Shown: positions 3,661 through 53,671 of the stretch, one piece after another
Numbering within the stretch: the stretch's first letter is position 1
How the letters are laid out: the number at the start of each line of letters is the position of its first letter
IMG/VR virus record: IMGVR_UViG_3300045911_000047
Location: 1-53,671 of that record
Direction: 5' to 3' (one strand)
Source of the DNA: a virus
Length of the DNA stretch: 53,671 bases
Made by a program: the position numbers and the translations under genes
Notes under the pieces: generated by a model
Told to the model about the DNA's origin: nothing
The model's input: the letters and a program-made list of their open reading frames with translations, nothing else
Database searches by the model: none

Positions 3661-3903
3661 ATGAAAGCAACCCCACTAGACAATCCCCAATATTCCCTTG
3701 TAAAAGAAGCACTATTAAAACTTCCTGATCTAACAAAAAAGAAGATCACGATTGAACAAGTAGAGGATAGGGTTTATTGGTCATTTGATAAATACCCAGA
3801 TCTTGTATTTCAACAGATAACGATCAACTCTTGGCGTGTACTTTGTACGAATAAAACAATCGGACTTTCTAGGATGATAAATTTAATAGAGGAGTTTGCA
3901 TGA
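3661..3903 (+). CDS. Hypothetical protein preceding the SNF2 helicase (80 aa)
   Basis: An 80-residue protein with a good AAAGGAG ribosome site. It has a predicted mixed alpha/beta make-up, with a central segment VYWSFDKYPDLVFQQ and a later NSWRVLCTN strand; no enzyme motif is recognised. It ends with ATGA overlapping the helicase start by 4 bases, so the two are probably translationally coupled and its role is likely tied to replication or the helicase. It is the first gene after the candidate origin. Confidence 0.7.
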   Translation: MKATPLDNPQYSLVKEALLKLPDLTKKKITIEQVEDRVYWSFDKYPDLVFQQITINSWRVLCTNKTIGLSRMINLIEEFA

Positions 3904-5141
3904 AAACACTTTATCCACATCAAAGAGAAACAGTAGATTTCACCATCAATCGTTTCAAAACACATAAAGGCGTGTATAACGCATCAGATGTGGGAACAGG
4001 GAAAACGCTCTCAACTATTGAGACATGGAAAGCACTTGGATCACCCCTAACACTAATACTTTGCCCTGCTGTTGTTGTACACAACTTTGCACGGGAGTTT
4101 CGAGAATTTGCTCCCAGTGCAAACATTCAAATAACGACCAAAGACAATCAAACAGGAGATGTTCTGATTACCTCGTACGACATATTCTCAAGACACTACC
4201 AAAAATTCCCACGTGTATCTTTGCTTGTATGTGATGAAGCACATTACCTAAAGAACTATCAAGCAAAACGCACTCAAACGGTGCTAACCTACATAAGACT
4301 TCATGATCCGTATAGGATCTTTCTGTCAGGAACCCCATTTGTAAATTCAGCAGTGGATGCCTTTGTTTGTTTTCGTTCCTGCGATCCAAAGACATTCATA
4401 TCTTTTGAACAATTTGCTAATCGCTACACAAACATTCACACGATTCGTTTGCGTAACCGCATGGTTACTCAGTATAAAGGGATTCGCAATGCAGATTCAT
4501 TAAAGGAACTATACAAATCTTTCCTAATTCGTTTCACTAAGGAAGATGTTATAAAGACCTTGCCACAATTAATGCATTCAACGTGCTACTTTCCTAACAC
4601 TTCAAACTTTAACCGTGCAATAGTGCAACAAGCACTAGATGATTTCCATAATGGAAGGAGAGATTCAACCTCAGTTTCAACAATCAGGTATGAGTCTGGT
4701 CTTGCTAAAGTGAAATATGCCACTGATTATGTAAAAAATATGCTAGAGCAAGGCGAGCCAGTTATCCTATTTGCACATCATAGGGAAGTTATTAAAAAAT
4801 TAGCAGAAGCTTTACATGAGTATGCTCCCTCAGTTATCACAGGTGACACCATAGACCGACAAAACCAAGTAGATCGTTTTCAGAACGAACAAACGAATCT
4901 AATCATCATGAACATTCGAGCTGGCGGTGTTGGGATAAATCTAACCCGTGCGCGTCATGTCATCTTTGCTGAATTTGATTGGACGTATGCCGCCCAAAGT
5001 CAGGCAATCGGACGTGCTTATCGAAACGGTAATTCTAATGCCTATGTACAAGCACATTATTTATTGCTAGAAGATTCATTAGATGAGGTTATGTATAGAG
5101 CCATTAACTTTAAGGAGGAGATGGAAAAAACCCTGATGTAG
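3900..5141 (+). CDS. SNF2-type superfamily 2 helicase/translocase
   Basis: ATP-driven double-stranded DNA translocase, 413 residues. Visible motifs: Q-like PHQ near residue 6, Walker A GTGKT at 32-36 (motif I), DEAH at 112-115 (motif II), LSGTP at 142-146 (motif III), and in the C-terminal RecA-like lobe AGGVGINLTRA (motif V) and QAIGRAYRNGN (motif VI, arginine finger). The protein is a minimal helicase core without extra domains. Stand-alone SNF2 helicases are typical of phage replication clusters that also contain DUF2800, DUF2815 and a family A polymerase, as here. Likely role: remodelling or unwinding at replication or recombination intermediates. Confidence 0.93.
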   Translation: MKTLYPHQRETVDFTINRFKTHKGVYNASDVGTGKTLSTIETWKALGSPLTLILCPAVVVHNFAREFREFAPSANIQITTKDNQTGDVLITSYDIFSRHYQKFPRVSLLVCDEAHYLKNYQAKRTQTVLTYIRLHDPYRIFLSGTPFVNSAVDAFVCFRSCDPKTFISFEQFANRYTNIHTIRLRNRMVTQYKGIRNADSLKELYKSFLIRFTKEDVIKTLPQLMHSTCYFPNTSNFNRAIVQQALDDFHNGRRDSTSVSTIRYESGLAKVKYATDYVKNMLEQGEPVILFAHHREVIKKLAEALHEYAPSVITGDTIDRQNQVDRFQNEQTNLIIMNIRAGGVGINLTRARHVIFAEFDWTYAAQSQAIGRAYRNGNSNAYVQAHYLLLEDSLDEVMYRAINFKEEMEKTLM

Positions 5142-11483: not shown

Positions 11484-11676
11484 AGTATCAAAAAAAATGC
11501 GAGAGTGTCTCGAAGACGAAGAATGGAAGAAACAGGCTCTAGAGTATGTAATGTTTGCTTCTCAATTGTTCCCAGAAGACACTTTTAAGAAAGATGAGAA
11601 TATAGAGCTATTCCTATCTGGAATATTATTCTTGTACGCATTATCGCAGTTTGAAGATTCTAAGGAGATTAATTAA
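11458..11676 (+). CDS. Hypothetical protein (72 aa)
   Basis: A 72-residue acidic protein starting MTIWLTPTEV. ATG 11458 is chosen over an upstream TTG because GGAGG lies just before it (11450-11454), though the spacing is short. The product is helical, with a hydrophobic segment ELFLSGILFLYALSQF near the C-terminus that could be a buried helix or a membrane helix. It overlaps the HTH gene by 26 bases and shares one base (TAATG) with the next gene. No family recognised. Confidence 0.6.
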   Translation: MTIWLTPTEVSKKMRECLEDEEWKKQALEYVMFASQLFPEDTFKKDENIELFLSGILFLYALSQFEDSKEIN

Positions 11677-12662
11677 TGAAATTTGCAATTGATTACCTAG
11701 GTGGCGCCCGCTATGGAGATATAATCCTAAAAGCTCACCCAAAGGATTTTGGAGCAGGGTTTTTTTCTTTTGTAGATGGTTTTGGGTCTTCCTTGCCTGT
11801 TGCAAGAAAACTTGCATCTACCAATCGCTGTCCCTTCATTCGCTTTCATCTTTGGTGGCGTGATAATCATAACTTTAACGGCTATGAAGATGAGATCATA
11901 AACCAAGCCGAAGACGTAAGAAAGTTAGTTAAAGATTTCCCTAAGATTCAATTTGAAGTTTCCCCAGCTTGTGAGCATCTTTGGCGGAAGGAGAAAGCAG
12001 ACTTAGTTTGTGCTAATGTAGAGAAAATATTTAAAGGGCTTTCTAATGTAGAAGTAATCAATACCCCATATCTTGGCGGCGGTGGACAATTATCAAGCAA
12101 ATATAAAAACGAAGTACATAGAGCTGATAATCAAGTCCCTCGTCAAGGGCGCTTCAATTTCTCTTATGATGGGAGATCCGCTGTGGACTCTCCTGTCTCT
12201 AAAGACAAAAGAAGATGGCAGAAGGCTGAGTGGTTTTTCTTCTGGACATATCAGCTAAATCTAAAGCGAAATGAGAAAGATCGTACCCCAAGAAAAGATA
12301 GAAAAGCTAAGCCTACTAAAGAGCTTATTGAGTCTTTAGCTTACCTAGCTACAGAGAAAGGAAGAACTTTTATAGAAAAAGGATGGTTATTAAAAAGTCA
12401 TGCTGAGCAAATAGGGGATACTCCTACTGCTCGAGAAAATAAAGTATTAGTGCTTGCTCCAATTAAAGCTAGTAAATGTGAGCTTATTACTGAAGATGGC
12501 AAAGTTGTAGCAAGGGCTCCTTATTACGGGTCATTTGAAAAACTACATAGATACTACTTTGAAGTATGGGGCTATAAGCTTCCTAAAAGAGTTAGAGTAG
12601 TAATCAATGGGAAAAGTTATGGGATTGTAAATCCGGGGTTTCGAGAAGGATATTTTAGGTGA
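11676..12662 (+). CDS. Hypothetical protein, possibly TIM-barrel-like (328 aa)
   Basis: A 328-residue protein that I do not recognise with confidence. The N-terminal two thirds show alternating strands and helices with conserved-looking strand ends (CPFIRFHLWWRD, IQFEVSPACEH, VEVINTPYLGGG), reminiscent of a TIM-barrel hydrolase. The last 90 residues look like a small beta domain (KVLVLAPIKASKC, RVVINGKSYGIVNPG). There is no signal peptide. It sits between small regulators and the cytosine methyltransferase, sharing a TAATG junction upstream; its stop overlaps the GTG start of the methyltransferase. An enzymatic role is a guess. Confidence 0.75.
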   Translation: MKFAIDYLGGARYGDIILKAHPKDFGAGFFSFVDGFGSSLPVARKLASTNRCPFIRFHLWWRDNHNFNGYEDEIINQAEDVRKLVKDFPKIQFEVSPACEHLWRKEKADLVCANVEKIFKGLSNVEVINTPYLGGGGQLSSKYKNEVHRADNQVPRQGRFNFSYDGRSAVDSPVSKDKRRWQKAEWFFFWTYQLNLKRNEKDRTPRKDRKAKPTKELIESLAYLATEKGRTFIEKGWLLKSHAEQIGDTPTARENKVLVLAPIKASKCELITEDGKVVARAPYYGSFEKLHRYYFEVWGYKLPKRVRVVINGKSYGIVNPGFREGYFR

Positions 12663-13606
12663 ATGGCTTGGATCTATTTTCGGGAATTGGAGGACTCACA
12701 CTTGCTCTTAAAGAATGGGTCACCCCAATCGCCTATTGCGAATCGGATGAGTACGCGCAAAAAGTTCTCCTTAAACAAATGGTTTCAGGAAACTTACCCG
12801 TTGCCCCAATCTGGGATGACGTTAGAACGCTCAGAGAGCTACCCTGCCCAATTGACATCATCTATGGAGGATTTCCATGTCAGGATATCTCGGTTGCAGG
12901 CAAGCGTCTCGGCTTGGAAGGAGAGCGAAGCGGATTATTTTTCGAGGTCGTGCGGTTGGTCAAAGCGTTCAAGCCCACGTTCCTATTCCTTGAAAATGTC
13001 CCAAACATCAGAACAAAAGGATTGGATAGAGTTCTCCAAGAACTTACCTCCGCAGGGTATGATTGTAGATGGTGTATGCTATCCGCTAAGGAAATTGGAG
13101 CGAATCACAAAAGAAATAGATGGTGGCTTTTGGGCTACTCCAAATACTATGGATTGGATGCCCTTAAGGAGCATGGAAGCCTTAAAGAGACAATTCAATA
13201 CTACAAGGAAGGGGAGAACGAAACCTTCAAATCTCAGAGAACAAGTACACCCCCAGTGTTGGCCCAAGAACCTAATGCTTCCAACGCCAGATGCAAGTCC
13301 AAGAGGGCCAACAAAATACTACGACCCAAAACACAAAAGCTACATATACAGGACATTGCAGAGCTTTGTTCGGATGTATCCAACCCCTTGTGCAAGAGAT
13401 TGGAAGGACAATGGTCAGAGCAAGGCAGAATTACAGAGGAACACAAAGACTTTATGCACCCATGCTGGTGGACTGTTGAACCCGACGTGGGTCGAGTGGC
13501 TAATGGGGTACCCTCTAGGGTGGACAGAATAAGAGCATTAGGAAATGCAGTGGTACCATTGCAGGCGAGGACAGCTTTCATGGAACTAATGGGAATAAAA
13601 GGATGA
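12659..13606 (+). CDS. DNA (cytosine-5) methyltransferase
   Basis: A 315-residue C5 methyltransferase that transfers a methyl group from AdoMet to cytosine in a specific DNA sequence. Motif I LDLFSGIGGLT at 4-14, motif IV GFPCQ at 71-75 with catalytic C74, motif VI ENVP at 112-115, motif VIII HKRNR at 150-154 and motif X-like RIRALGNAVVP near 290 are all present. The target-recognition region between VIII and X is short. The start is GTG overlapping the previous stop (GTGA). No cognate restriction enzyme is nearby, so it probably protects phage DNA. Almost its whole length is also open in a second plus-strand frame (12663-13532) that looks like a real protein. Confidence 0.93.
   Translation: MNGLDLFSGIGGLTLALKEWVTPIAYCESDEYAQKVLLKQMVSGNLPVAPIWDDVRTLRELPCPIDIIYGGFPCQDISVAGKRLGLEGERSGLFFEVVRLVKAFKPTFLFLENVPNIRTKGLDRVLQELTSAGYDCRWCMLSAKEIGANHKRNRWWLLGYSKYYGLDALKEHGSLKETIQYYKEGENETFKSQRTSTPPVLAQEPNASNARCKSKRANKILRPKTQKLHIQDIAELCSDVSNPLCKRLEGQWSEQGRITEEHKDFMHPCWWTVEPDVGRVANGVPSRVDRIRALGNAVVPLQARTAFMELMGIKG
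12663..13532 (+). CDS. Overlapping-frame protein inside the cytosine methyltransferase gene (289 aa)
   Basis: A second open frame of 289 codons lies in the +1 frame of the methyltransferase, from ATG 12663 (directly after the TGA of the preceding gene) to TAA at 13530-13532. Its product reads like a protein: EDFHVRIS, SSPRSYSLKMSQTS, GMIVDGVCYPL, FWATPNTMDW, LPTPDAS, YPTPCARDWKDNG and the ending LNPTWVEWLMGYPLGWTE. I recall these PTPxARDWK and LNPxxVEWLMGxPxGWT motifs from phage and bacterial proteins near C5 methyltransferases; that is memory, not a search. A stop-free run of this length in another frame of AT-rich DNA is very unlikely by chance. It could be true dual coding or a by-product of codon constraint. 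Confidence 0.6.
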   Translation: MAWIYFRELEDSHLLLKNGSPQSPIANRMSTRKKFSLNKWFQETYPLPQSGMTLERSESYPAQLTSSMEDFHVRISRLQASVSAWKESEADYFSRSCGWSKRSSPRSYSLKMSQTSEQKDWIEFSKNLPPQGMIVDGVCYPLRKLERITKEIDGGFWATPNTMDWMPLRSMEALKRQFNTTRKGRTKPSNLREQVHPQCWPKNLMLPTPDASPRGPTKYYDPKHKSYIYRTLQSFVRMYPTPCARDWKDNGQSKAELQRNTKTLCTHAGGLLNPTWVEWLMGYPLGWTE

Positions 13607-14025
13607 AAAAGAATCTAAAAAGAATCGCTAAAGAGCTCTTTCATTCTCAAGATATAGGCGGGCATAAAGGTCTTTTAGGAAGTCTCGCTCAACTTAGAGG
13701 AGATTGCACAAATATTATAGGGGAAGCTTCAAGAATTTATGGAGATGTTTCAAATCTAAGAGGGGATGTTTCGAATCTCGTAGGAGATGTCTCAGGGATT
13801 TCTGGGGGTATATTCATAAGAGGTTATGTCTCAGGACTTCGAGGAGAAGTCTCTAGACTTCGAGGTTCTGTTTCTTGGCTTACTGGTGATGTCTCAGGGC
13901 TTTCTGGAGAAGCTACAGGCGTTATTGGAGATGCTTCTGGGGTCATTGGAAACCTAGATGACTGTGAGCTTACTAAGGAAGAGAGAGCTAAAGGGGTTCT
14001 ACTAGAAGATTTAATAGGAGATTAA
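13603..14025 (+). CDS. Heptapeptide-repeat (GDVSxLx) protein, beta-solenoid-like
   Basis: A 140-residue protein whose middle (about 25-115) is built of 7-residue repeats of the type G-D-V-S-x-L-x (for example GDVSNLR, GDVSNLV, GDVSGIS, GEVSRLR, GSVSWLT, GDVSGLS). Such regular repeats with small and aliphatic positions suggest a short solenoid. The N-terminus is basic; the C-terminus LDDCELTKEERAKGVLLEDLIGD is charged and appears separately conserved. I recall similar repeats in other phage proteins of unknown function. It starts at the methyltransferase stop (ATGA overlap). Its last 33 bases are duplicated at 15210-15242. Confidence 0.8.
   Translation: MKKNLKRIAKELFHSQDIGGHKGLLGSLAQLRGDCTNIIGEASRIYGDVSNLRGDVSNLVGDVSGISGGIFIRGYVSGLRGEVSRLRGSVSWLTGDVSGLSGEATGVIGDASGVIGNLDDCELTKEERAKGVLLEDLIGD
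13984..14016. repeat. Cassette repeat R1, copy 1 (3' end of heptapeptide-repeat gene)
   Basis: These 33 bases recur at 15210-15242 with one mismatch (14001/15227), and their right half (TAGAAGATTTAATA) recurs again at 14136-14149. In the two later copies the TTA inside the repeat is the stop codon of a leftward methyltransferase gene. The repeat marks one boundary of a duplicated cassette. Confidence 0.85.
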
Positions 14026-14026
14026 A

Positions 14027-14128
14027 ATGCAACAGATTATTTATTTAAGATATGCTCCTTCTGGGTGTGCTGTTCCTTTCTGCTACCCGTTCTACTGCCC
14101 ATTTTGCTATCGATTCTATAGAAGCTAG
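14027..14128 (+). CDS. Short Cys- and aromatic-rich peptide (33 aa)
   Basis: An open frame of 33 codons with GGAG six bases upstream of ATG. The peptide is rich in Tyr, Phe, Pro and Cys in the second half (CYPFYCPFCYRFY), hydrophobic but with no clean membrane helix. It lies directly after the heptapeptide-repeat gene in the same direction and ends before the convergent methyltransferase. Evidence for expression is only the good ribosome site and spacing. It may be a remnant left by recombination at the cassette boundary. Confidence 0.4.
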   Translation: MQQIIYLRYAPSGCAVPFCYPFYCPFCYRFYRS

Positions 14129-14135
14129 GGCTAAT

Positions 14136-14151
14136 TAGAAGATTTAATAAG
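14136..14151. repeat. Cassette repeat R1, shortened copy 2
   Basis: TAGAAGATTTAATAAG here is identical to 15229-15244. Upstream bases (AGCTAGGGCTAAT) look like a shortened form of the AGCTAAAGGGGTTCT found in the two longer copies. The TTA at 14144-14146 is the stop codon of the first leftward methyltransferase. Confidence 0.8.
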
Positions 14152-15145
14152 GTGAATGTTTCTTTGCACGTATTAAGATACGGGTATATTTTTCAACACC
14201 ATTTATGAGTGGTCTTCCATGTGGAGTACCCTTATATCTTATACCTATATTTTCTTCGCCTGTATTCATAATTCCAAGTAACTCAAACTGTTCGGGATTG
14301 TATTTATTGATGAAGGTGATAGGTACGCCCATAACGCCATCATAATCTATTGGAATATCTGTGGTCTTAGAGACTTCTATTGCATCATAATTATCATATC
14401 TTGGGTACTTTTCAGGGATATATTTTTTATGAAGTATTAAATAATTCTGATAGCGTGTTTTGTAATCTAGGTTCGTAAACCATCTTACACCATTAACCGA
14501 AACATACTTATTGCCTTCATTATCAGTTCGATAGTTACTAGTCTTTAGTTGATAATCATTTGATATTCTAAATTCTAAAGTGCCGCTACGAATACTTGCA
14601 CCAAGCCACATTTTGTTTTCTTTAATATATTTGAAAACTTCTTTACATATTATTGCGTTTTGATTCCCTAAGATTAAAAACTTTTTCTCATATCTCATTA
14701 GTTGAGCAACATATTCCCTAAATAACGAGAATGGAGGATTAGTTACTACAATATCAGCTTGTTTTAATAACTCTATGCACTCTTCACTTCTAAAATCTCC
14801 ATCACCGTGAAGAAAGGTAGAAACGTTTTTATTATGTCTTAATAGCTCTATAACATCATCTTTAATAGGTTCTAATACTTCATTTATTTCAACCCTCTTT
14901 GGGGTTGAATGATAGTTTGTAACTATAAGTTTCTTTAGTCCTAGTTTGTTAAAATTTAAAGTGAAGTACTTAAAGAAATTACTCTCATACGGATCATCGC
15001 AGTTACAATAAACTATTTTGTCATAAAACTGGTCTTCATAGTGTGCTAACTCTTTCTCAATATCACTTAATTGAGTATAAAACTCATCTTTCTTGGCTTT
15101 CCTTGCATTGACTAATTTTCTATTTGATAGTTTTGTCATAGCCAT
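14144..15145 (-). CDS. Adenine-specific DNA methyltransferase, EcoRI-methylase family
   Basis: A 333-residue N6-adenine methyltransferase. DEFYTQ at 20-25, CNCDDP at 47-52, LGLKKLIVTNY, GDGDFRS at 114-120 and the catalytic NPPF at 136-139 match the M.EcoRI-type family. No restriction partner is nearby, and GAATTC sites remain in the genome (for example 1191, 1215, 1386, 53338, 53413), so if it has EcoRI-like specificity it would protect them; the specificity is not proven. It runs against its neighbours, has no clear Shine-Dalgarno site, and is bounded by repeats shared with the next methyltransferase, so it was probably acquired as a cassette. Confidence 0.9.
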   Translation of the reverse strand: MAMTKLSNRKLVNARKAKKDEFYTQLSDIEKELAHYEDQFYDKIVYCNCDDPYESNFFKYFTLNFNKLGLKKLIVTNYHSTPKRVEINEVLEPIKDDVIELLRHNKNVSTFLHGDGDFRSEECIELLKQADIVVTNPPFSLFREYVAQLMRYEKKFLILGNQNAIICKEVFKYIKENKMWLGASIRSGTLEFRISNDYQLKTSNYRTDNEGNKYVSVNGVRWFTNLDYKTRYQNYLILHKKYIPEKYPRYDNYDAIEVSKTTDIPIDYDGVMGVPITFINKYNPEQFELLGIMNTGEENIGIRYKGTPHGRPLINGVEKYTRILIRAKKHSPY

Positions 15146-15169
15146 TTTTATATTAAATTATCTTATAAA
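15145..15169. repeat. Cassette repeat R2, copy 1 (leader of first methyltransferase)
   Basis: Twenty-five bases that recur at 16349-16373 with a single mismatch. Read on the minus strand they form the AT-rich leader just upstream of each methyltransferase start and contain TATAA-like stretches (TATAAGATAAT, TATAAAA) that could serve as a -10 element. They mark the other end of the duplicated cassette. Confidence 0.8.
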
Positions 15170-15180
15170 CGGAGATAGCT

Positions 15181-15206
15181 AAATGCCAGTAGACAATATT
15201 GATGAA
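15181..15206. repeat. Cassette repeat R3, copy 1 (5' end of phospholipase-like gene)
   Basis: Twenty-six bases starting AAATGCCAGTAGACAA recur at 16371-16396 with one mismatch (15197/16387). The second copy is the genuine start of the phospholipase A2-like gene. Confidence 0.85.
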
Positions 15207-15248
15207 GAAAGAGCTAAAGGGGTTCTCCTAGAAGATTTAATAAGATGA
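15183..15248 (+). pseudogene. Chimeric remnant joining two neighbouring genes
   Basis: A 21-codon frame whose first 8 codons (MPVDNIDE) copy the start of the phospholipase-like gene at 16373 and whose remaining codons (ERAKGVLLEDLI) copy the end of the heptapeptide-repeat gene. This is exactly the junction expected if a unit running from the 3' end of the repeat-protein gene to the 5' end of the phospholipase gene was duplicated in tandem. It keeps a GGAG ribosome site, so it may still be translated, but it is most simply a recombination scar. Confidence 0.75.
15210..15242. repeat. Cassette repeat R1, copy 3
   Basis: Matches 13984-14016 at 32 of 33 positions. The TTA at 15237-15239 is the stop codon of the second leftward methyltransferase, the same position within the repeat as in copy 2. 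Confidence 0.85.
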
Positions 15249-16343
15249 TTTCTTAAGAAGCCAAAGCAATTCTTTAACTTTTATATCTCTATTGCGTAAG
15301 TTTCTTGAACCACGATAGGTATTATAATCCTGCTCCATTAGTTCCCATGTTCCGTATTTGGAAAGGATTTTCTTAAATACCTCAATCGGTATAATACCTT
15401 CATCATTGTAAGATATAACTATAAACCTTGCTTGTGTGTCAGCTAAAAGCTGATCCATGGCTTCCTGAGCTTCCTTTCGTTTGTTGTACGCAGATCTATT
15501 CCATTCTTTTGCTATCCCACTTATGCCATCTTGTATCTCTACAGGCTTACCGCTGTTGATAATATTGAGCATAAAGTAATTAGATCCATATGGGTGCTGA
15601 TTATAGGGCGGATCGTAATAGGCTAGATCGAATACAGGTAATTTTGGATCTTTTACTAATTGGTTTATATCTTGTTTATAGATATAAACTGGACATTCGA
15701 AATCAGACAATTCTGGCATCTCAAGCTCAATTTCTTTTTTAATTCGCTCCAAAGCATTTTCGCCACGCCCACCAAAATGTCCAACACCATTTCGTTTGTG
15801 AAATCCCTTGAAGACTCCAGATGTATTAGTGTGAATTGATGCTTTTACTAAGAGTGAAGCAAGGCAAAAATGTCTGTACTCTTTCGGCACTTTTTCAATC
15901 AATCTACGAAGATTATCTATAATTTTTGCGTTAATGTTCGTATAAAAAACTCTTTCTCCCGGCTGAACATTATTATCGTCTTTTGGAGCATAATTTGTCT
16001 CGATAAACCCCGGGGCGTCTGTTCCTTTTAGTTTGTTCTTATTAAGCCAGTCTATGTATTTCTTTAATTGCTCTAGGTTCACTTCAGATTTATTTGCAAG
16101 ATAAGCACGATTCAAGGTCTCTGCATAATCCTTTAGGTCGTTTACATGAAGCTCTTTAGCAAATATCTTTAGAAGCCTAGAAACCGCACCGCTTCCTGCA
16201 AAGCCGTCAAACACAATTAGTTTTTCCTTATTAAGATTTTCCCTGACCCTAAGGAAACCTTTGTATAGAAAGGGAATTAGTTTCCGTTTATTTCCAATAT
16301 AGGTGATTAACTGTGAGGTTAGGTTAATATTATATTTTATCAT
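15237..16343 (-). CDS. DNA adenine methyltransferase, D12/Dam class
   Basis: A 368-residue N6-adenine methyltransferase. The order is motif X-like YIGNKRKL at 15-22, AdoMet-binding GFAGSG at 47-52, and catalytic DPPY at 244-247 followed by YGSNYF. This alpha-class arrangement matches D12 methyltransferases; the region between holds the target recognition part. It is not related in sequence to the EcoRI-type enzyme next to it, yet both end on the same TTA inside repeat R1 and both begin at repeat R2. There is no restriction gene and no obvious ribosome site. Likely role: protecting phage DNA from host restriction. Confidence 0.92.
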   Translation of the reverse strand: MIKYNINLTSQLITYIGNKRKLIPFLYKGFLRVRENLNKEKLIVFDGFAGSGAVSRLLKIFAKELHVNDLKDYAETLNRAYLANKSEVNLEQLKKYIDWLNKNKLKGTDAPGFIETNYAPKDDNNVQPGERVFYTNINAKIIDNLRRLIEKVPKEYRHFCLASLLVKASIHTNTSGVFKGFHKRNGVGHFGGRGENALERIKKEIELEMPELSDFECPVYIYKQDINQLVKDPKLPVFDLAYYDPPYNQHPYGSNYFMLNIINSGKPVEIQDGISGIAKEWNRSAYNKRKEAQEAMDQLLADTQARFIVISYNDEGIIPIEVFKKILSKYGTWELMEQDYNTYRGSRNLRNRDIKVKELLWLLKKSSY

Positions 16344-16348
16344 TATTG

Positions 16349-16373
16349 TTTTTATACTAAATTATCTTATAAA
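16349..16373. repeat. Cassette repeat R2, copy 2
   Basis: Matches 15145-15169 at 24 of 25 positions. It lies in the 29-base gap between the divergent methyltransferase and phospholipase-like genes, so it probably carries their promoter elements. Confidence 0.8.
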
Positions 16374-16396
16374 TGCCAGTAGACAACATTGATGAA
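16371..16396. repeat. Cassette repeat R3, copy 2
   Basis: Matches 15181-15206 at 25 of 26 positions and includes the start codon of the phospholipase A2-like gene. Confidence 0.85.
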
Positions 16397-16630
16397 TGTG
16401 GGATTTTCGGAATAGGGCGTTGTAAGAGATTCCGCACTGCCTGTAAATGGCACGATGATATGTACGTGATGAAGGAAGAAAAAGGAAATCCTCTATCTAG
16501 GGAAGAAGTAGATAAGAAATTCTATAATGCCATGCTAGCTGCTGCTGGGGATAGTCTTTATTATCAGCTTAAAGCAAAGGTTTATTATGGTATAGTGAGG
16601 GCAGTTGGCTGGTATTTTTGGAGATATTAA
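16373..16630 (+). CDS. Phospholipase A2-like small protein
   Basis: An 85-residue protein with the sequence ACKWHDDMY at 23-31, which resembles the C-x-x-HD-x-x-Y catalytic helix of phospholipase A2 enzymes (H27-D28 dyad). A second helix follows with SREEVDKKFYNAML, as in small bacterial and viral PLA2 domains. An N-terminal CGIFGIGRC could supply a calcium loop and a disulfide. If active it would hydrolyse host membrane phospholipids, either in lysis or during entry; no signal peptide is present. It follows the cassette repeats, and its first 24 bases are copied upstream. The assignment rests on the HD motif only. Confidence 0.6.
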   Translation: MPVDNIDECGIFGIGRCKRFRTACKWHDDMYVMKEEKGNPLSREEVDKKFYNAMLAAAGDSLYYQLKAKVYYGIVRAVGWYFWRY

Positions 16631-16776: not shown

Positions 16777-17231
16777 ATTATCTCGGTATTGACCCCGGGA
16801 AAGATGGGGCTATAGCAATATTATTACTCCCTAATAATCTTCAAGTATTTAGGTTCTCTAAGGATCTTCCTAGTTTCCTAGACCTATGGCGTACTGTGCA
16901 CCTAGACACCATAGTGTATCAAGAAGATGTGCATGCCATATACCGAGCCAAGGCAAGCTCTACCTTCTCCTTTGGCCGCTCTGTTGGTTTTTGGGATGGT
17001 CTTTTCTATGCCTTACCGCCTAAAGATAGATTCTTTGTAACTCCTACTGTATGGCAAAAATCGGTGCAGATTGCTCAAGCTAGAGTAAAAGGTAGATCTA
17101 GGAAGGAACATAGGCAAAGAATAAAGGCTGCCTCCATGAGGGTAGCGTCTTTGTATGCTGGATTTAAAGTCTCGCACGATGGGGTTGCAGATGCTATAAA
17201 TATATTACGATATGGGTTATTACAAGACTAA
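16773..17231 (+). CDS. RuvC-like Holliday-junction resolvase
   Basis: A 152-residue RNase H-fold nuclease. GIDPGKDGAIA gives the first catalytic Asp (D7), IVYQEDVHA the Glu (E51) and SHDGVADAINI the terminal acidic residues (D136/D140). The length and arrangement match phage RuvC-like resolvases that clear branched DNA before packaging. It starts with GTG overlapping the upstream small gene. Its position between the methyltransferase cassette and the fibre genes suggests action on replicated concatemers late in infection. Confidence 0.85.
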   Translation: MNYLGIDPGKDGAIAILLLPNNLQVFRFSKDLPSFLDLWRTVHLDTIVYQEDVHAIYRAKASSTFSFGRSVGFWDGLFYALPPKDRFFVTPTVWQKSVQIAQARVKGRSRKEHRQRIKAASMRVASLYAGFKVSHDGVADAINILRYGLLQD

Positions 17232-18000
17232 TAATTGTGGGTGCACCCAGTCAGTGATTGTGGAGGAAACTCCTATTACTCCTGTAGATACAAACACTGT
17301 TGATCTTAGTGTCTCAGGGCAATATAACCATACGCTCAAGGCGGATGTTAAGGTGTCAAATGCCTCTGGGAACTCTTTGACTATAAACTCAGATGGCCTG
17401 TATTGTTCTTTAGATGTATCAGATTGTGAGGCACTCAGGGATTGTATAGATGTTGAAGATACTAACACTGTTGATCTAATTTATCTTGCTGGAGCACTTA
17501 GTGCGAATGTTAAAGTATCTCCCAATTCTTGTAACTCCTTACAGACTCTTAACAATGGACTATATATAAATGCTAATAATCGTTTTGGTGCACAAGAGGC
17601 CTTAGCTGTATATCAAGGAAGCCCTATACAGGTAGGAACTACTCCAATTATTCTTCTTACGACTGGTACTGTTTCAGCTATCCCCGCTCAATGTAGAAGC
17701 ACCTCGGTTGGGTTTGTGGTAACTGGACGGTTAAGGATCCAGAAAAACGTAGGTCTTGATTTTGTGATTGATATTCAGATTCAAAAGAATACCAATGGTT
17801 GGGGGCCACAAAGCACTTTTAGGATAGGGAATAATATGCTTTGGGATGCTGATTATGTATTCACGGATGTGGGAACAGTGTTAGGCCCCGGGCAAGTTCC
17901 AGATACATATCAAATTAGAATGCTAGTTTATTCTAATGGATCCTTTGTTACTGTCACAGGCGGGGAATTAAATTTATTATTATTCTACGGGTCTGTATGA
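17212..18000 (+). CDS. Fibre-like virion protein A (first copy of a duplicated module)
   Basis: A 262-residue structural protein with an N-terminal Cys tag (NNCGC). It contains two internal repeats of about 45 residues: D-TNTVDL, a short turn, K-x-D-VKVS or SANVKVS, G/CNSL and DGLY or NGLY. The C-terminal half is beta-rich, as in fibre or head-decoration knobs. It is clearly paralogous to the protein at 18236. It overlaps the resolvase gene by 20 bases and the small partner gene by 4 bases. Probably a host-recognition or surface fibre; placement on the virion is unknown. Confidence 0.75.
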   Translation: MGYYKTNNCGCTQSVIVEETPITPVDTNTVDLSVSGQYNHTLKADVKVSNASGNSLTINSDGLYCSLDVSDCEALRDCIDVEDTNTVDLIYLAGALSANVKVSPNSCNSLQTLNNGLYINANNRFGAQEALAVYQGSPIQVGTTPIILLTTGTVSAIPAQCRSTSVGFVVTGRLRIQKNVGLDFVIDIQIQKNTNGWGPQSTFRIGNNMLWDADYVFTDVGTVLGPGQVPDTYQIRMLVYSNGSFVTVTGGELNLLLFYGSV

Positions 18001-18185
18001 TAAAATATTATCGTTATATCGATGAGAATGGAACTTATCTAGTTACCAGTGATTCTGAGATGCCTGAACCTTTCCTAGAGATAACTAAGACTGAGTTCCT
18101 AACAACATATTCTAATATCTTAGGTATGGGGACTCAGGTGCAAGATTGGCTATTCCCAGAGTCAATACAAGAAGCGCCTCAATAA
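17997..18185 (+). CDS. Small fibre-partner protein A (62 aa)
   Basis: A 62-residue acidic protein beginning MIKYYRYIDENGTYLVTSD and translationally coupled (ATGA) to fibre protein A. It is weakly paralogous to the 48-aa protein at 19171: both open with several tyrosines, then a D/N-G turn, and share T-x-T/AEF/AQY spacing. Small acidic genes directly after fibre genes often act as assembly chaperones or fibre tips; that is inference from position. Confidence 0.65.
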   Translation: MIKYYRYIDENGTYLVTSDSEMPEPFLEITKTEFLTTYSNILGMGTQVQDWLFPESIQEAPQ

Positions 18186-18235
18186 GAAAAAGTTCTAATG
18201 CATCTATATTCATTAGATGGTATAAAATAAGAGGT

Positions 18236-19174
18236 ATGTCTTGTTGTTGTAAGCCTCAAGAGTGTAAATGTATCAGTATCACCTCTATTGCAGAGGAGAC
18301 TCCGATTACCCCCTTAGACAGTAATACCGTAGATCTTACTGTCTCGGGAGCCTATGATCATACAATCAAGGCTGATGTGCGGGTATCCGCTGCCTCTGGG
18401 AATACTCTATCTGTACTTTCTGATGGGCTATATGTCTCAGGTACCAATGTTGATTGTAATCAGGTTCGATCTTGCCTGTCTGTAGAGGACACTGACACTA
18501 TTGATTCAAGCTATAATCAGATTACAGGGCAATTCTCTGCGAATGTTAAGGTATCTTCTAATCCCAATAATAATCTATCAATCGCTTCAGATGGCTTATT
18601 CGCTTCTGGGGTAGATAATCTAGTAACAGTTAATCCGGGCAATCCAAACTGTCAGCTTGTTGGGCCTAATAGCATGATAAAGAATGCTAGTATCGTAGGG
18701 GATACCCTAAATATTTGGGGTGCTCCAGAGGTAGCACAGCAGATAACTAGTATCAGTGCCTTTAATATCATTTCCTATTCTCCACCAGTTGGCTCCTTAG
18801 GATTGGCATTAGAGACCACCAATTTAATTGTCTCTTTTAATCCTTGTAGAAGCACCGTTGGATATATATTTATAAGATTAGCCATAGAGTTAAATAAGCC
18901 TAGTGCTGTTGGGTGGTATTGTGAGTTAGACGTTAGTACCAATAGTGGCGTTACTTGGACAACCATCTCAACCTATAATCTAAACTCTGGGGTAGCTTAC
19001 AATGGAACTTTTGATGTTTCTGCTAGTCCTTTTCCAGTAGCAGTTCCTATAGGAGGCCCAAACCAAACTGTTAGGGTACGAGCTAGGATGCGACAAAATG
19101 GTGGCGCTTTTGGAGATATTGTTATAGTGTCTAGGAACATAGTATTAAGTAGTTTTGGAGTTTCCCTAGGATGA
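18236..19174 (+). CDS. Fibre-like virion protein B (second copy of the module)
   Basis: A 312-residue paralogue of fibre protein A. ATG 18236 is chosen because it gives the Cys-rich opening MSCCCKPQECKC, matching the Cys tag of copy A; the GAGG site just before it has very short spacing. Residues 20-140 hold the same two repeats (EETPITPLDSNTVDL, KADVRVS, DGLY; then SANVKVS, DGLF). The C-terminal knob differs from copy A, so the copies may bind different receptors. It overlaps the next small gene by 4 bases. Confidence 0.75.
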   Translation: MSCCCKPQECKCISITSIAEETPITPLDSNTVDLTVSGAYDHTIKADVRVSAASGNTLSVLSDGLYVSGTNVDCNQVRSCLSVEDTDTIDSSYNQITGQFSANVKVSSNPNNNLSIASDGLFASGVDNLVTVNPGNPNCQLVGPNSMIKNASIVGDTLNIWGAPEVAQQITSISAFNIISYSPPVGSLGLALETTNLIVSFNPCRSTVGYIFIRLAIELNKPSAVGWYCELDVSTNSGVTWTTISTYNLNSGVAYNGTFDVSASPFPVAVPIGGPNQTVRVRARMRQNGGAFGDIVIVSRNIVLSSFGVSLG

Positions 19175-53644: not shown

Positions 53645-53671
53645 GGAGGAAAGAACATGAGGAAACTATAC
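53645..53671. repeat. Right copy of 27-bp terminal direct repeat
   Basis: Identical to 1-27. It contains the ribosome site and first five codons of the gene whose complete copy is at 13-240, so the partial gene here (from ATG 53657) is the same gene repeated by the overlap, not a second gene. Confidence 0.9.

Follow-up and report, generated by a model that had tools for sequence, protein, structure and literature searches.

The stretch of DNA analysed here (the window) is a 53,671-base virus record of IMG/VR, IMGVR_UViG_3300045911_000047, a metagenome-derived contig. The locus in question is bounded by a repeat-protein gene (13603-14025, + strand) and a gene for a protein of 85 amino acids (aa; 16373-16630, + strand), between which two unrelated adenine methyltransferase (MTase) genes lie side by side in the reverse orientation. 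The slot is doubled in the window, the edges of the flanking genes being repeated as three short repeats, R1, R2 and R3, in the order R1-MTase 1-R2-R3 followed by R1-MTase 2-R2-R3.

MTase 1 (14144-15145, - strand) is an EcoRI-type N6-adenine MTase (PF13651, E 1e-126) and MTase 2 (15237-16343, - strand) is a D12-class N6-adenine MTase (PF02086, E 4e-17). Both matches are above the Pfam cut-offs and agree with the two enzyme classes named in a first-pass annotation of this DNA. What we take to be NPPF and DPPY motifs are seen in the MTase sequences. The best homologues of MTase 2 align from residue 8-9 to residue 360-365 of its 368 residues; the nearest of the D12 MTases found (53% identity) is carried by L017, a contig that consists of a long inverted self-duplication and probably reflects an artefact of assembly. 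Neither MTase has a sequence match among solved structures. The structure model of MTase 1 has a mean pLDDT (predicted local distance difference test) of 62.7 and is confident mainly in the N-terminal part, the well-predicted core ending near residue 180; a Foldseek search with this model gave nothing below E 0.001, the best hits being S-adenosylmethionine-dependent MTases. Both genes end, as had been claimed, on the same TTA of R1, seen in GATTTAATAAG, MTase 1 in the copy at 14136 and MTase 2 in the copy at 15210. The further claim that both starts abut R2 applies to MTase 1 as listed, and if MTase 1 starts two codons later, as it does in the relatives, the two genes have identical start positions with respect to R2.

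R1 (33 nucleotides, nt) is found at 13984-14016 and 15210-15242 with one mismatch, and the similarity stretches to 49 nt at 88% (13971-14019 and 15197-15245); a short copy lies at 14136-14155 (95% of 20 nt). R2 (25 nt) has copies at 15145 and 16349, and R3 at 15181 and 16371, again with one mismatch each, and the repeat coordinates and single mismatches reported earlier all hold on re-checking. In a self-comparison of the window R1 scored 64.4 bits and R2 with R3 49.1 bits, the best self-repeat in 20 Markov simulations reaching at most 41.0 bits. The tail of the repeat-protein coding sequence forms R1 (EERAKGVLLEDLI; 13978-14016, + strand, in the intact gene by repeat alignment), the region where the MTase gene starts forms R2, and R3 comprises the first 8 codons of the 85-aa gene. 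R1 to R3 are thus the edges of neighbouring genes and no separate special sites. The idea that R2 is a phage-wide promoter motif was rejected, as a search allowing up to 3 mismatches revealed no copy in the window besides these two, with 0 expected.

The two units meet in a 21-codon chimera (15183-15248, + strand), an in-frame fusion of the 16373 gene's head with the repeat-protein gene's tail that reads MPVDNIDE followed by ERAKGVLLEDLIR. The overlap at the join of R3 to R1, read by eye, is 3 nt (GAA). This join had been taken as the remnant that a tandem duplication would leave; the join is borne out, but a tandem duplication is not enough as its sole origin, because one such event alone cannot yield two unrelated genes, and allele exchange or later replacement is needed. 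R1 is likewise present at 13984, as reported earlier, but the actual left flank of the doubled unit is a decayed R1 copy at 14121-14155 (+ strand), 35 nt long with a 10-nt gap, whose alignment score was not reached by any of 5000 shuffled versions of the surrounding 135 nt. The copy flanking MTase 2 (15204-15242, + strand) has the same AATAAGRTGA end as this decayed copy, whereas the 13984 copy runs on as AATAGGAGATTAA. At the other side of the unit, the first R2 copy (15145-15169) in the start region of MTase 1 is followed by an intact ribosome-binding-site segment (15170-15182, + strand), which aligns with that of the two relatives described below. The second R2 copy (16349-16373) adjoins a deletion of 14 nt that removes the GGAG ribosome-binding site retained at 15145 and in both relatives, and it is this second R2-R3 copy that precedes the full 85-aa gene.

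A scan of IMG/VR with MTase 1 yielded 12 loci, two of which (L002 and L003) contain the flanking genes, and a scan with the 85-aa protein yielded only the same two. These protein scans used exact short-peptide patterns, and one of them recovered one of two contigs already known, so that empty answers are weak; the collections searched may also omit records very near the window. L002 and L003 are siblings (93.6% identity over 8.4 kb). In both the slot contains a single EcoRI-type MTase with R1, R2 and R3 once each, as a later doubling would predict; the alternative of the same two MTases in every relative, between diverged flanks, was thus encountered in neither. A search of the two records for a D12 MTase found none, with no positive control in those records. 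Their shared DNA with the window spans 11671-16628 (83-91% identity over the main aligned pieces), running from the ATG of a 328-aa gene to the stop codon of the 85-aa gene. Outside this block there is one DNA match, a 71% piece at 11222-11449 in L002, the other proteins of the two records show few weak matches to the window (27.9-37.3% identity), and their TerL proteins belong to PHROGs other than that of the window's TerL. A shared block in a different backbone implies that the block moved between otherwise different phages or that both acquired it from a third source.

The order of events can be read from the flanks. Over the 88 sites of R1, R2 and R3, the two copies in the window differ at 4. 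The 13978/15145/15183 set differs from L002 at 11 of the 88 sites and from L003 at 9, and the 15204/16349/16373 set at 11 and 10, respectively. Seven sites unite the window copies against both relatives, and three conflict, one copy agreeing with a relative. The two flank copies in the window resemble one another more than they resemble either relative, which indicates that the doubling took place after the blocks had split.

MTase 1 itself is a mosaic. Synonymous differences from L002 amount to 16/166 in codons 1-180 and 37/71 after (Fisher p 5.6e-12), and those from L003 to 12/165 and 36/70 (p 2.2e-13), while L002 and L003 compared with each other show no jump at codon 180 (10/172 and 2/138, p 0.07). 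At the protein level the N-terminal part is identical to that of L002 in 168 of 180 residues (92.9% aa identity) and the C-terminal part in 73 of 145 (52%); the latter is 64% identical to its counterpart in L011 and 54% to that in L004, two unrelated contigs. Protein-level selection by itself would not push synonymous differences so high, which argues that one lineage received a new C-terminal half. The difference in this half is therefore due to recombination, of which either lineage could be the recipient, and the C-terminal half presumably sets the target site. In a further unrelated contig (L006, 6001-8200) two tandem EcoRI-type MTases are alike in their N-terminal parts and diverged in their C-terminal parts, where aa identity drops. 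This pair was considered as an independent half-gene replacement, and is not counted as support because its synonymous differences (37/166 and 22/72) do not differ significantly (p 0.19).

A first variable slot (slot A) lies between the 328-aa gene and the repeat-protein gene, and its contents differ in all three records. In the window it contains a C5 cytosine MTase gene (12659-13606, + strand; PF00145, E 5e-42), in L003 a second repeat-protein gene with a 3' scar of the C5-MTase gene that matches 13439-13507 at 90%, and in L002, which has no counterpart of the C5-MTase, a gene for a 501-aa SAT-repeat protein together with a 107-aa gene. Slot A, too, has thus undergone replacement gene by gene. 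Within the block, then, the same flanks enclose differing contents, namely one MTase in both relatives and two in the window, besides the three contents of slot A. Unrelated genes occupying one slot are found in slot A, with the C5-MTase in one record and repeat-protein genes in others, and the MTase slot is EcoRI-type in both relatives. Identity changes sharply at the ATG and the stop codon that end the block and at codon 180 of MTase 1. The C5-MTase gene has a G+C content of 46.5%, compared with about 38% elsewhere, which may point to a foreign origin.

These features can be accounted for, with a probability that we put at about 0.6, by an exchangeable one-gene slot for reversed orphan adenine MTases, situated in a block that moves between phages and doubled by one unequal recombination. 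Two close sibling phages, with an EcoRI-type gene in the slot of one and a D12-type gene in that of the other, would have co-infected a cell and recombined out of register, so that R3 from one phage was fused at the 3-nt overlap to R1 from its partner and both MTase genes were kept. The homology for swapping whole or partial MTase open reading frames (ORFs) may come from the flanks, which take in the region where the MTase starts as well as its last codons over the repeat-protein tail. The phage encodes a PD-(D/E)XK nuclease (DUF2800/PDDEXK_1) and a Gp2.5-like single-stranded-DNA-binding/annealing protein (phrog_112), and its own exonuclease and annealing protein would be plausible agents. Both MTases are proposed to methylate the phage DNA at different sites and thereby to shield it from different host restriction enzymes.

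Several observations weigh against this history. No phage with a D12-only slot, or with another MTase family in that place, was found in the scans made, and the exchange of unrelated MTases in the MTase slot is thus something that we infer. The putative ancestral state with a single slot rests on two relatives that are siblings of each other. The R1 copy to the left of MTase 1 (14121) is decayed and gapped within its 35 nt. In L002 and L003 the MTase stop codon lies 22 nt past the stop codon of the repeat gene, outside R1, so that the layout with the stop in R1 is special to the lineage of the window. The earlier proposal that the slots hold interchangeable MTases stands for variation of content between flanks, as seen in the C-terminal half of MTase 1 and in slot A, and falls short at the MTase slot of the relatives, which is of the EcoRI type only.

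One out-of-register exchange is most likely, being the simplest history, and its main rival is a tandem duplication of an EcoRI-type slot by slippage at the 3-nt overlap, after which a D12 gene replaced the second copy via R1 and R2. This sequence of events would give the same final layout with flank copies that are sisters, and the D12 homology does lie inside the ORF, with the terminal residues MIKYNINL and SSY as possible leftovers of the slot; it requires two events instead of one, however, and no EcoRI-type trace was seen in slot 2 except at its ends, so that we regard it as the less probable of the two histories. An integron-like system that swaps MTases, in which R1 and R2/R3 would be sites of a dedicated enzyme, could explain why the two ORFs stop on a common base of R1 and can also begin at equal distance from R2. 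It is nevertheless highly improbable, and the term cassette system used in the first-pass annotation goes too far: R1 and R3 belong to the coding ends of adjacent genes and occur once each in the relatives, extra copies of R2 do not occur, recombination in slot A and MTase 1 took place at other points (gene edges and the interior of a gene), the join has just 3 nt of overlap, and neither a dedicated recombinase nor any integrase or transposase was recognised among the ORFs scanned against PHROGs. Hardly more credible is a chimera of assembly, in which two alleles of co-occurring phages were joined in silico. The contig is derived from a metagenome in which the inferred parents would co-occur, but an overlap of 3 nt between R3 and R1 is too short for a k-mer join, and neither the in-frame 21-codon chimera nor the 14-nt deletion would be expected.

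Orphan MTases can be regulatory, and those of the window might serve gene regulation, packaging or competition between phages instead of protection from restriction. Such a role seems unlikely, as a recombined specificity half, a doubled slot and the turnover of genes fit protection from changing host enzymes better. The family of the MTases likewise suggests an anti-restriction role. Examples of protection have been published (PMC4190342), and in the portions of two papers used here the role of orphan phage MTases with the strongest support is protection from restriction (PMC4190342, PMC7468147). No restriction enzyme family was found among the neighbouring genes scanned by profiles, which often fail to recognise such enzymes. 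Recombination between the R1 copies or between the R2 copies is predicted to leave descendants that carry just one MTase, of one type or the other.

The locus adds a new, well-preserved case to a known type of MTase exchange; unusually, it retains both alleles together with a join that can still be read. A study by Hill et al. (1991) reportedly, by its title, concerns the exchange of an MTase domain involving a plasmid and a phage. That phages swap MTases at fixed positions has already been described for cryoconite phages, in which, according to the part of the paper used, genes of flexible modules are exchanged at fixed places by recombination and orphan MTases are the most frequent known genes in the variable islands (PMC7468147); variants alternate in a slot there, whereas here a tandem pair with its join is present. 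The DOMO system of Helicobacter pylori Type I specificity genes, as outlined in the section used, has the similar arrangement x-A-y-x-B-y, in which the repeats x and y are places of recombination that can increase or decrease the number of units (PMC3077401). Its units are target recognition domains in one gene, in contrast to the whole unrelated MTases and, separately, the half gene that are affected here. In lambdoid phages, so far as the source was consulted, modules are similarly exchanged between short conserved flanks by homologous and homeologous recombination with the help of phage recombination proteins (PMC2327257), Red beta there and possibly the Gp2.5-like annealing protein here, where recombination is read from sequence. 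Finally, the excerpt used on lactococcal 936-type phages reports orphan MTases in variable places, two of them in one region in Phi93, which protect against restriction (PMC4190342); a homing endonuclease gene lies between those two, whereas there is none here and the duplicated flanks show the origin of the pair.

The locus records three steps, block transfer, the swap of half an MTase and the doubling of a slot, that probably widened protection from restriction. A more general, tentative interpretation, for which the odds are clearly lower than for the doubled exchangeable slot, is that of a modification island, which would move between unrelated phages and collect MTase specificities, ORFs and specificity halves being swapped between fixed gene edges and unequal exchange giving rise to tandem arrays. 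If so, it would represent DOMO at the scale of whole genes, and one phage would keep several specificities at once.

The 328-aa gene (11676-12662, + strand) forms the left end of the block, its protein being 91% identical to that of the relatives and DNA identity being high from its ATG; it has no Pfam, PHROG or NCBIfam match, and its structure model is poor (pLDDT 45). The repeat protein contains 7-residue GDVSxLx repeats and is 87-88% identical to its counterparts in L002 and L003. No Pfam match was found for it, and its match to TigB (NF047709), a family of precursors of ribosomally synthesized and post-translationally modified peptides, is weak (32.5 bits, cut-off 70). The sole phage record with a similar repeat protein is MW202691 (36% identity), which contains no annotated MTase in the stretch shown. 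Downstream, an insert missing from L002 and L003 contains a 33-aa ORF (14027-14128, + strand), of which 14078-14117 resembles part of L002's SAT-repeat gene (82.5% of 40 nt, E 0.003, suggestive only); by this resemblance the insert is likely, though not proven, to be the remnant of another repeat-protein gene, now broken, that shared this tail with the intact one. The 85-aa gene forms the right end of the block (96% aa identity in L002 and L003), DNA identity with L003 stopping at its stop codon. It had been called a phospholipase, a name that finds no backing, as it has no Pfam match and its best PHROG is of unknown function.

Exact-pattern scans of IMG/VR for R2 and R3 gave no match; they missed L002 and L003 because these read MPVDNVDE and have a slightly altered R2, for which the patterns were too strict. 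Scans with polA and TerL found no relative of the window's backbone. The shared block was found neither in the genome collection, scanned by exact-peptide patterns with the 328-aa and 85-aa genes, nor in the phage records and plasmids searched. No paper on this locus was found in the literature searched, to which subscription papers are mostly external. Elsewhere in the window, positions 1-27 are identical to 53645-53671, a sign that the genome is probably complete and either circular or circularly permuted. Two adjoining genes (17212-18000 and 18146-19174) share 147 nt at 71% identity and NTVDL-type motifs, possibly representing another duplicated locus. By PADLOC models, a SNF2-type helicase encoded at 3900-5141 is similar to the helicase portions of two defence proteins, ZorD and DpdE.

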